From Methanoplanus limicola DSM 2279 (GTDB taxonomy: Archaea > Halobacteriota > Methanomicrobia > Methanomicrobiales > Methanomicrobiaceae), in assembly GCF_000243255.1 (NCBI RefSeq), contig NZ_CM001436.1, positions 2,959,175 through 3,023,174 on the forward strand: 64,000 bases of DNA, read 5' to 3'. Both the position numbers and the translations under genes were made by a program. Positions 26,572 through 30,978 of the stretch are shown piece after piece (the first letter of the stretch is position 1; each line of letters begins with the position of its first letter). Under the pieces are notes generated by a model. It saw nothing but the letters and a program-made list of their open reading frames with translations, had not been told where the DNA came from and searched no databases.

Positions 26572-28008
26572 TTATATGCAGATCCAGAAATACTTCAGGT
26601 ATTCGGGAGACTTAAGTACCCTCCAGTCAGACGGAATATGGATATGATTCCCTTTAAAGAACTCATATCCGGGTTCACCGCATTCGTACACAAACCCGCA
26701 CCTGTTATACCCGGAATCTCTGTCAATGCTCTCGACAAAGTAGCTCCTTACAACCTCCGCCGTTCCTATGCTGTCATACCATTTCAGCGTATAACTGAGA
26801 TATCCCAGATCACCAAGTGTCATAACAGCATCAATCGCTGTCACAACACCGTCCCTGAAGGTGTCATTCCTGAGATTATGGGCATAAACCTCAACTGAAC
26901 CATAATTATAGATATTCGTCCTTCCCTCAATGATAACCCGCGGAATGATAACCCTGCCCCCGTTCTCATCCTTTCGCATAATTTCGGTTCTGAAAACCTC
27001 ATATCTCTCCTCCAGTTCATCCGGACTTACCCTCACCATTCTAAGAATTGCACCCTCCTTCCACGGGTACTCATCCATTCTCTGGTAATTTATCTCTCCA
27101 AAAGGGACAGATGTATAACCGCCGTCATAATATCCCTCATACCACCAGTTCCTGCTCCCTTTAAGAGAATCTATTACATTTGTCTCCATCTCCGGGTCAT
27201 AATGATACTTCAGATCAAGCCCTTTCTTGTCAGAAACCATTACAAGAGCATCAAACATGGAATACTTACCCTCCTGAAAGATGTCAGGCCTTGACTGTGA
27301 CATTAAGAGAGAATCGACACTGTAAACAACCCCGTCGATCTGAACAGAATTACCCGGCTCTTCAGTCAGATTATACACAAAACCGGATTCAAACGCAAAC
27401 GCTGCAAGAAGAAGAGCCGCCAGGAACAGAAATGAAGAGAGGTTCTGAACAAAGGAGGATTTTTTCTTTCTGTGCAGTAACAGTTTTAGGCCCGCAGCCA
27501 TATGAACGGAAAATGCTATATAAAAAATATTGTCAGCAATAACATGATTTGAAAGGCTGAATGGTTCCTTCAAAACAAAATAATAGTCAAATCCGCTTAT
27601 AAATACAAATAAACCTGAGATTAAAATAATTATACCCGACACTCTCAATACCAGGATAATAAAAGAAATCCCTGATATTTTTCGCACTAAAAGAGAATTA
27701 AAGCCCTTTTTCCAGTTATATTTTACAAGGAAAGTATATACATAAACATGATACAGAAGCAGTACTGCAAATAAAACTGAGAGAATCACATGAACAACTG
27801 TTGGAACAGGCTGACTTTCGGTTCTTGTGAGCAGATATCCGGTGACAAACGCAAGAAATGTCATTACAAATAAAAGCCATGAAAATTTTCTGTCCGCAAG
27901 AATCAGCTTTTTCCTGAAAGAACTTCTTCTCCGGAATACTCCAATCTCTTCTTTTTCCTTTGATTCAGATAAGTTATTACTCCGGATTCCACGCATCTTT
28001 CCCTTCAT
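26572..28008 (-). CDS. Putative bis-heme cytochrome b-like membrane protein with exported domain
   Basis: 478 residues with five hydrophobic helices in the first 210. The second helix has H73 and H87, the fourth H155 and H169; each pair is separated by exactly 13 residues, the spacing and B/D helix placement that bind two hemes in cytochrome b and formate-dehydrogenase-type subunits. The last 260 residues are a soluble, probably extracytoplasmic domain rich in Tyr and Trp (NWWYEGYYDGGYTSVPFGE) that I do not recognise; it vaguely resembles DUF4430-type ligand domains. Heme binding is inferred from spacing only. No redox partner gene is adjacent. The ATG has GGAGG 12 bases upstream. Confidence 0.55.
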   Translation of the reverse strand: MKGKMRGIRSNNLSESKEKEEIGVFRRRSSFRKKLILADRKFSWLLFVMTFLAFVTGYLLTRTESQPVPTVVHVILSVLFAVLLLYHVYVYTFLVKYNWKKGFNSLLVRKISGISFIILVLRVSGIIILISGLFVFISGFDYYFVLKEPFSLSNHVIADNIFYIAFSVHMAAGLKLLLHRKKKSSFVQNLSSFLFLAALLLAAFAFESGFVYNLTEEPGNSVQIDGVVYSVDSLLMSQSRPDIFQEGKYSMFDALVMVSDKKGLDLKYHYDPEMETNVIDSLKGSRNWWYEGYYDGGYTSVPFGEINYQRMDEYPWKEGAILRMVRVSPDELEERYEVFRTEIMRKDENGGRVIIPRVIIEGRTNIYNYGSVEVYAHNLRNDTFRDGVVTAIDAVMTLGDLGYLSYTLKWYDSIGTAEVVRSYFVESIDRDSGYNRCGFVYECGEPGYEFFKGNHIHIPSDWRVLKSPEYLKYFWICI

Positions 28009-28254: not shown

Positions 28255-29277
28255 TTATACCAGATGGAAGAGTGGATGTGTATCCACCTGTGGCTCAAGG
28301 CCAAACTCCTTGGCTGCCTCAGCAAGTACGATATCTGAGAATGCGATTGCAGTGGATGCACCTTCACAGTTCTCGATAGGTCCGTACATGATAAGATCTG
28401 CACCAAGGGTTGCAGCCATAATGTTACAGCCAATGTCAGGTGCTGCCCATGCAGTCTGCCTGATACCCTCGAATCCGCCAAAGTGGTGGTGTGACATCTG
28501 TTCCATAAGAAGATCTTTGCCGACATACTGCTCAGCAAGAACATTCTTTCTCCAGCGCTTAAGCCATGTCCATGACACTGTCATGTTGTGGTATGCACCG
28601 CCGGTTGGGAGACCATGGATTGCCTTGCATGCAAGAATCTCACGGAATGAACCGCCTGAACCAATACCGAGCGGTGTTGCTGCGGTATCAAGAATAGGGC
28701 GTGTAATTCCGCACTCTTCTGCAATCTGAAGCATGGATTTTTCCTGACCTGCAACGCCACCCTCTGCAAGTACTGCCTCACGTCCCCTGACGGTTGGGTC
28801 ACCAGGGTTGAATGCAAGAACAATAGCTGCATTGACATCACTGTTCTTTAAAGCCTCGATATTCTCAGGGCCGATTGAACCGTTGATGGAGTTGTAGATT
28901 GCACGGTCTGCAAGACCGACTTCTGTTACATACTCACATGCATGTGCAAGTGCCGGAGGATTTGAAGAATCCATTAAGAACGCGGTCTTGTTGTCAACTG
29001 AATCAAACCAGCTGAAATAGCTCTCAAATGCTTCCGATGTCTCAGAGATGATCTGGATAAAGTGTGGAACTCCTGTAATATCAGAGAGTTCAAGACACCT
29101 GTTCCAGAGAGCCTCTGCACGATCCTTGTCAATTATTCCCTTCTCATCATCAATAACTGTCTCGTGCTTGTTATAAAAGATGGAAGCGCCGAGCACCCTC
29201 GGATATTCTCCGGGCTGCCCGCCGATCTTGGTACCATTAAAGTCGTGTACCGTCTGCTCTTTCTCGAATTTGAACAT
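28255..29277 (-). CDS. mtrH: Tetrahydromethanopterin S-methyltransferase subunit H
   Basis: Catalytic subunit that moves the methyl group from methyl-H4MPT (or the sarcinapterin form) to the corrinoid on MtrA. The sequence begins MFKFEKEQTVHDFNG and contains IGGQPGEYPRVLGASIFY and the TIM-barrel segment FLMDSSNPPALAHACEYV, all typical of MtrH. A GTG three codons upstream is possible, but ATG at 29277 follows AGGAGGAGTGACAAAA and gives the standard N terminus. It is the last gene of the operon, 15 bases after the MtrA-MtrG fusion, and is peripheral to the membrane complex. Confidence 0.95.
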   Translation of the reverse strand: MFKFEKEQTVHDFNGTKIGGQPGEYPRVLGASIFYNKHETVIDDEKGIIDKDRAEALWNRCLELSDITGVPHFIQIISETSEAFESYFSWFDSVDNKTAFLMDSSNPPALAHACEYVTEVGLADRAIYNSINGSIGPENIEALKNSDVNAAIVLAFNPGDPTVRGREAVLAEGGVAGQEKSMLQIAEECGITRPILDTAATPLGIGSGGSFREILACKAIHGLPTGGAYHNMTVSWTWLKRWRKNVLAEQYVGKDLLMEQMSHHHFGGFEGIRQTAWAAPDIGCNIMAATLGADLIMYGPIENCEGASTAIAFSDIVLAEAAKEFGLEPQVDTHPLFHLV

Positions 29278-29292
29278 TTTTGTCACTCCTCC

Positions 29293-30033
29293 TTATATCA
29301 TTGCCATAAGTTTCGGGAGTAATACCAGCAACATCATGAATACAATCAAACCTGCGACAAGACCGTAGAGGATACCGATATCCCTTCCGACTTTACGGCC
29401 TACACGCTGTGCAATTTCCGCGTCTGCGAACTCAAGCCTCTTCTCAATCTCATTGAGGCGTGATTCGACTTCAAGGAACTGTGGATTTGCGGTTGCAGCA
29501 AGTGCACCGTCTCCGCCGGCACCATCCTCTTTGACCTCGATAACTATCGGGTCGCCGTCGAATGCGCCAGGATCTCTTCCTTTCAGCTCTTCAATTTTTG
29601 CTTTGATTGTACCCATGTCCTCAGATTCCATGATGTCGACTATCTCGACCTGCTCACGGAAACGCTGGACCCCTTCATCAGTAAGGTTCTCGATGAACGG
29701 GATAGCTCCCTTTGCACCGACAATCTTTCCGCCTTCAAGACCATTTGCGTGAAGCGCAATAAGGCACTGGCCGGAAAGGTGACCCTTAACCTCAGTTCCA
29801 CAGGTGATAATAAACCTGATATTAGGGTTTGCAATTACATTTGCAACGATCTTTTCAAGACCGAGGTTCTCTGTCTTACAGGAACCGCACATTGCAGCAC
29901 CTGCATCACAGACGGCCTGTTCATCAAGATGTGAACCGACAGTTACCACAACAACAGGACTTTCCGCATCACCAGCGTGATAATCACCCTGGATCTTTGG
30001 CCATCCTGAAGCAGGAGATTTCTTGTCAGCCAT
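29293..30033 (-). CDS. mtrG: Fusion of a second MtrA corrinoid domain to MtrG
   Basis: 246 residues in the operon position of mtrG. Residues 1-170 are a copy of the MtrA corrinoid domain, with 22 differences from the intact MtrA in those 170 positions by my hand alignment; the cobalt-ligand His is kept (H85 in EVKGHLSGQ). A short Gly/Ala linker follows, then residues about 187-246 are MtrG: the motif [26 protein letters not shown] and one membrane helix. The normal MtrA tail and helix are gone from this copy. Frame and spacing are clean (TAA, then mtrH 15 bases on). It probably forms part of the Mtr complex, perhaps with two corrinoid sites. Whether the fused domain is active is unknown. Confidence 0.88.
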
Positions 30034-30252: not shown

Positions 30253-30978
30253 TCACCCCATTAAAAGGAAGCCCAGCAGGGCAAATGACACGATCAGACC
30301 GATCATGAGTCCTTCAACCTTACCTGAATAGACACCCGCTGCAAAGCGGTTGCGGTATCCAATGTCTGTGACCATCATCTGGATTGTCTTGAGTCTTGCA
30401 TGAATGAGAGCAAGCTCTGCGGTCATTGGTGTCTCTACGCCACCTTCTCCGCCGGCTGCACCGCCATCATCTTCCTTGACTTCAAGGACAATAGGTTCAC
30501 CATCAAATGCGCCCGGATCTCTGGCTGTAAGCTCATCGATCTTGGCTTTGATTGCACCCATGTCTTCAGATTCCATGATGTCAACCATCTCAATCTGGTC
30601 ACGGAAGCGCTGGATAGACTCATCAGTGAGGTTTTCAATGAAAGGAATAGCACCTTTTGCACCGACAATCTTTCCGCCTTCAAGACCGTTTGCATGAAGA
30701 GCGTGGAGACACTGACCGGAAAGGTGACCCTTAACCTCAGTACCGCAGGTAACCATGAACCTTATGTTCGGGTTTGCAACCACATTTGCAACGATCTTCT
30801 CAAGACCGAGGTTCTCTGTCTTACAGGAACCACATATTGCAGCGCCTGCGTCACAGATACCCTGCTCATCAAGGTGTGATCCAACAGTAACTACAGCTAC
30901 AGGGCTTTCTGCGTTGCCTGCATGATAGTCACCCTGGATTTTTGGCCATCCGGATGCCGGAGCTCTTTTATCTGCCAT
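30253..30978 (-). CDS. mtrA: Tetrahydromethanopterin S-methyltransferase subunit A (intact)
   Basis: Corrinoid-bearing subunit (241 residues). The Rossmann-like cytoplasmic domain covers residues 1-170 with H85 in EVKGHLSGQ as the lower cobalt ligand. A Gly-rich linker ([11 protein letters not shown]) leads to the true MtrA tail, [16 protein letters not shown] ... [16 protein letters not shown], and a single membrane helix. This tail marks it as the canonical copy. It precedes mtrF by 5 bases. The first 170 residues are nearly duplicated in the downstream MtrA-MtrG fusion. Confidence 0.95.

Follow-up and report, generated by a model that had tools for sequence, protein, structure and literature searches.

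The DUF4405 cytochromes (PF14358) are built from a two-helix unit carrying an HX13H motif, with four central His in the full bundle, and heme b has been shown in vitro in purified DUF4405 proteins, including one of an Oscillospiraceae bacterium (PMC11334425). FdnI and the cytochrome b of NiFe-hydrogenases (PF01292 superfamily) are bis-heme four-helix membrane carriers that serve an outer enzyme, and in MsrPQ (YedYZ) a membrane heme protein is paired with an outer molybdoenzyme. The HX13H spacing is found in two helices of the cytochrome b of bc1/b6f as well. Encoded in the window, the stretch of 64,000 nt analysed here (G000:C1:2959175–3023174 of a single-contig genome of 3.20 Mb), is a protein that is best seen as a known kind of cytochrome in a new architecture, with a tandem DUF4405-type bis-heme module joined to a tandem transcobalamin-beta-like outer domain. 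The gene product is most likely a two-heme membrane electron carrier with an unclassified outer domain, predicted to fold like a doubled beta domain of the vitamin B12 carrier transcobalamin, and it provides a concrete candidate for a b-type cytochrome in an order of methanogens that is commonly regarded as having no cytochromes.

The open reading frame (478 residues, ATG start) occupies 26572..28008 on the minus strand, as do all parts listed here. Helices 1 and 2 form the first two-helix unit (residues 40–97; 27718..27891) and helices 3 and 4 the second (residues 110–180; 27469..27681). Connecting the bundle to the outer domain is a fifth helix (residues 185–206, 27391..27456; helix 185–214 in the AlphaFold2 model). 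The outer domain comprises repeat 1 (residues about 221–348; 26965..27348) and repeat 2 (residues about 353–478; 26575..26952).

The membrane part of the protein has His at positions 73, 87, 155 and 169 only, plus H179 at the cytoplasmic border. In the full-length AlphaFold2 model (mean pLDDT 79, pTM 0.61), H73 and H87 lie inside helix 2 (67–94) and H155 and H169 inside helix 4 (152–180), each pair having 13 residues between its members (14 apart), just as the original prediction had read them. That prediction had allowed for the spacing arising by chance, which is not borne out: with four His placed randomly over 128 membrane-helix positions, HX13H in both helix 2 and helix 4 is expected with p = 2.0e-5, and, a stronger argument still, the counterparts of helices 2 and 4 contain exactly one HX13H each in all eight fused homologues of other phyla. 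When ten fused proteins are aligned, no residues of the membrane part are invariant except T56, G57, H73 (codon 27790..27792), H87 (27748..27750), H155 (27544..27546) and H169 (27502..27504). The invariance of the four His in this alignment, together with the HX13H pairs of all eight homologues, is strong sequence-based evidence that they are functional.

The N terminus and the loops between helices 2 and 3 and between helices 4 and 5 are rich in Lys and Arg, from which we infer a cytoplasmic N terminus and an extracytoplasmic outer domain. With this topology helices 2 and 4 would run parallel, with H73 and H155 close to the outside and H87 and H169 nearer the inside. Four conserved His, arranged as two pairs on two parallel helices, are what characterizes a bis-heme b membrane cytochrome.

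The window protein itself falls below the Pfam gathering scores of DUF4405 (PF14358; 16.1 bits, cut-off 26.7) and of prokaryotic cytochrome b561 (PF01292; 16.7 bits, cut-off 30.1). Among family members, seven of ten match DUF4405 (best E 6.3e-13) and nine of ten match cytochrome b561 at E up to 1 (best 1e-7). Compared by hhalign with 13 aligned DUF4405-type proteins from Methanomicrobiales, the first unit scored 97.0% and the second 96.4%, with the His aligned, and the two units scored 96.1% against each other; two Mtr membrane subunits used as single-sequence controls, one of them MtrC, reached at most 0.6%. Judged by these profile comparisons, helices 1–2 and 3–4 are two copies of a DUF4405-type unit. 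The first match of the family profile in the PDB, and its best solved relative, is the FdnI cytochrome b556 (E 2.9e-4). A PDB search with the single window sequence gave nothing useful, and PHROGs held no match to the protein. Foldseek with the full-length model returned no significant match; among the plausible ones, hydrogenase cytochrome b and FdnI ranked best.

Because its halves are of the DUF4405 type, a family for which heme b has been shown elsewhere, and because FdnI is its best solved relative, the membrane part would be a bis-heme-b-type cytochrome and not a canonical cytochrome b. Assignment to the latter was rejected: despite the shared HX13H spacing, the Pfam family of bc1/b6f cytochrome b is matched by neither the window protein nor its homologues. 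The proposal of a bis-heme, cytochrome b-like protein is therefore retained as a bis-heme-b-type four-helix module, on the strength of the conserved HX13H pairs, the DUF4405, b561 and FdnI relations and a heme operon in the genome (below), and dropped as regards cytochrome b proper. The protein resembles the DUF4405 cytochromes in its two-helix units, both of which match, and in the four central His of the bundle, but differs in its sub-threshold Pfam score, its fifth helix and its large outer domain; no flavinylation gene was noted beside it. Unlike FdnI and the hydrogenase cytochrome b, it is encoded without adjacent formate dehydrogenase or hydrogenase subunits.

In the mechanism that we propose, the two tandem DUF4405-type units would build a bis-heme-b membrane cytochrome in which H73 and H155 hold the outer heme and H87 and H169 the inner heme, the two hemes lying about 20 Å apart along the parallel helices 2 and 4. 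Electrons would pass through the cytoplasmic membrane, exchanged between a partner in the cytoplasm or on the membrane side and whatever substrate or partner protein the outer domain binds, a role comparable to that of MsrQ or FdnI in serving their outer partners.

The outer domain comprises about 260 residues and is rich in Tyr and Trp, in agreement with the large domain of this composition that had been noted after the helices. No Pfam model matched it, those of DUF4430 and transcobalamin included, and literature searches on the domain found nothing relevant. Its halves are related in sequence (hhalign 84%, E 8e-6). Modelled alone with 29 sequences (pLDDT 88, pTM 0.86), it matched transcobalamin beta domains in Foldseek (best E 7e-4, probability 1.00), with a TM-score of 0.71 to 5no0, normalised to 5no0, and of 0.60 to 3u7z, a putative metal-binding protein. 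The domain is thus predicted from its model to be an internal repeat that folds like two transcobalamin beta domains. It shares this predicted fold with the transcobalamin beta and DUF4430-type beta-grasp domains, but differs from them in being a tandem repeat, in having no Pfam match and in being joined to a putative heme module. A near-invariant Cys pair in repeat 2, C437 and C477, may form a disulfide.

Within 150 Methanomicrobiales genomes the full protein is encoded in two, the window genome and that of its sister species (85% identity). A 33-residue piece of the outer-domain C terminus, probably a gene remnant, lies in another genus of the family (L003:1498–1617, minus strand). When 393 genomes of the phylum were searched with a profile, further genomes proved to encode the outer domain in lipoprotein-like proteins that lack the membrane bundle. 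In the GTDB species genomes no locus was found with the two-sequence full-length alignment as query, and 40 were found with the outer domain alone. Going by the record labels, some of which may be wrong (many of the records are metagenome bins), these belong to Methanosarcinaceae, Syntrophomonadaceae, Halanaerobiaceae, other Firmicutes, Bathyarchaeota, Undinarchaeales, Thermoplasmatota and Loki-, Heimdall- and Thorarchaeota. The domain is highly conserved: outside the genus, outer domains from methanogens, Asgard archaea and Firmicutes are 44–51% identical to that of the window protein.

The fused architecture of the window protein recurs in 8 of the 40 loci, seven of them Asgard (Loki-, Thor- and Heimdallarchaeota) and one Thermoplasmatales. 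Because so uncommon a fusion is shared with Asgard archaea, the joining of membrane bundle and outer domain marks a real conserved family. In a tree of outer domains, midpoint-rooted for drawing only, the window pair stands alone on a long branch, and fused and unfused forms are not cleanly separated. The outer domain constitutes an extracytoplasmic family without a Pfam model, which is found joined to a putative heme module and also, in many anaerobes, as a separate lipoprotein, often encoded beside arsenosugar-type genes; knowing what it binds would account for a conserved step that takes place on the outside of the membrane in many anaerobes.

Three kinds of gene context accompany the outer domain elsewhere. 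Eight loci, of which seven carry bacterial labels and one is Undinarchaeales (L032, L038, L041, L043, L045, L046, L048 and L050), encode the lipoprotein form close to a radical SAM gene of the ArsS type. Several of these also contain TIGR04282/TIGR04283 arsenosugar-type glycosyltransferases and a MerA/dihydrolipoamide-dehydrogenase-like FAD reductase, and the Undinarchaeales locus, checked for this, a VTT protein. In two Bathyarchaeota (one is L055) a small membrane gene with one HX13H is followed by the outer-domain gene, and in the Thermoplasmatales locus (L030) the fused gene follows that of an MsrP-like Oxidored_molyb lipoprotein (E 4e-34). This last arrangement recalls MsrPQ, but it was seen in L030 only and is absent from the window, where no MsrP-like molybdoenzyme gene lies beside the cytochrome-like gene.

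The window genome also contains a katA-ahb operon (G000:C1 about 1646341–1651042; L021:6342–11043), in which a catalase gene comes first and the genes of the AhbA/AhbB siroheme decarboxylase stand between two radical SAM genes of the NirJ/Ahb type. AhbB scores 139 bits against a curated cut-off of 125; AhbA and the radical SAM proteins remain below theirs. The window genome thereby encodes a heme source, whose absence the original prediction had named as a refutation, but the same does not hold for the sister species despite its 85% identical protein: it lacks AhbB and catalase as well as an AhbC/D-like pair. AhbB was likewise found in none of ten other carrier genomes, in which the few AhbD-like profile matches are below cut-off and indistinguishable from other radical SAM proteins. 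Because AhbB is missing from the sister species and these ten carriers, heme in several carriers would have to be scavenged, or another cofactor used.

The original prediction presumed Methanomicrobiales to be cytochrome-free, which is too strong, because DUF4405 proteins are encoded in 70 of the 150 genomes of the order and AhbB over cut-off in 50 of the 150, and because split ahbA/ahbB (PMC11237513, 2024) and HdrDE (PMC9478090, 2022) are recorded there. None of 32 Methanomicrobiales surveyed in 2021 had the complete AhbABCD set (PMC8351635). Across the order, the presence of DUF4405 shows no association with that of AhbB (25/70 versus 26/80, p 0.73). The small DUF4405 proteins of the 150 genomes are mostly two-helix proteins with one HX13H (examples L068–L087). 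In the window genome a two-helix DUF4405 gene adjoins that of a secreted protein which weakly matches FmdE (L107:5585–6654, minus strand), and in both genomes of the genus an MsrP-like gene is followed by that of a 76–77-residue membrane protein with one HX13H (L105:5073–6028 and L106:5788–6741).

For a two-heme carrier speak the conserved HX13H pairs, the Pfam, hhalign and PDB relations, the katA-ahb operon, the MsrP-like neighbour in Thermoplasmatales and the HX13H neighbour in Bathyarchaeota; against it count the sub-threshold Pfam scores, the carriers without AhbB, the lack of association between DUF4405 and AhbB and the absence of a significant full-length Foldseek match to a cytochrome. 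The four His might instead bind another metal, as the original prediction had allowed, or be structural, the bundle having kept a cytochrome fold without heme. The absence of AhbB from the sister species and ten other carriers would fit such a bundle, as would the independence of DUF4405 and AhbB within the order; heme auxotrophy is, however, known in methanogens, and several carrier genomes are MAGs. The strict conservation of both HX13H pairs, at the very spacing of bis-heme ligation, also opposes a bundle without heme, as does the heme b of DUF4405 proteins, that from the Oscillospiraceae bacterium among them (PMC11334425), and we regard heme-free His as quite unlikely. A bis-heme-b membrane cytochrome, carrying electrons across the membrane to or from a substrate or partner bound by the outer domain, is the probable identity of the protein.

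Such a cytochrome might be an MsrQ-like donor to an extracytoplasmic molybdoenzyme of the MsrP/sulfite-oxidase type, with the outer domain docking the enzyme or binding its substrate; the Thermoplasmatales locus, with its Oxidored_molyb gene ahead of the fused gene, and the MsrP-like protein encoded in both genomes of the window genus are consistent with this. The MsrP-like gene of the genus, however, lies far from the cytochrome-like gene and has an HX13H membrane neighbour of its own, and the Asgard loci lack a molybdoenzyme neighbour, which makes this role unlikely. The predicted transcobalamin beta fold points in another direction, to a receptor-reductase in which an arsenic compound or a molecule resembling cobalamin would be bound by the outer domain and reduced by the hemes, and the lipoprotein form in the eight arsenosugar-type clusters and the near-invariant Cys pair can be read in the same way. 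A shared fold does not imply a shared ligand, however, and the DUF4430 and transcobalamin models of Pfam are unmatched; the Cys pair may be a disulfide, and no ArsS over cut-off, and hence no arsenosugar link, was found in either genome of the window genus. We consider a corrinoid or metalloid receptor doubtful, and similarly speculative is a scheme uniting all forms, in which a trans-membrane bis-heme reductase of the methanogen genus, Asgard archaea and Thermoplasmatales would reduce a small molecule, such as a corrinoid or a metalloid, bound in the new tandem transcobalamin-like extracytoplasmic domain, and the lipoprotein form would serve arsenosugar-type clusters in other anaerobes.

The position beside the mtr operon, which the original prediction had pointed out, is confirmed: the cytochrome-like gene, which starts at 28008, lies downstream of mtrH (28255–29286) on the same strand, and the two species of the genus share this order. 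Such a place might suit a regulator or subunit of the Mtr methyltransferase complex, but the protein is found in only 2 of 150 Methanomicrobiales genomes, with the 33-residue fragment in a third, in an order in which mtr is, to our knowledge, general; homologues in other phyla have no mtr genes beside them. A part in the Mtr complex is accordingly very improbable. A functional link to mtr was rejected on the same distribution, and the adjacency, shared only within the genus, is probably incidental.

In the sister species a gene for an Mrr-type restriction endonuclease lies between the cytochrome-like gene and a cupin gene (L002:2997–3914). The mtr operon of the window itself contains two MtrA genes, both on the minus strand. 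The first copy (30253–30978) has a weak MtrF-like tail, and the second (29293–30033), in the place of mtrF/mtrG, is an MtrA–MtrG fusion.
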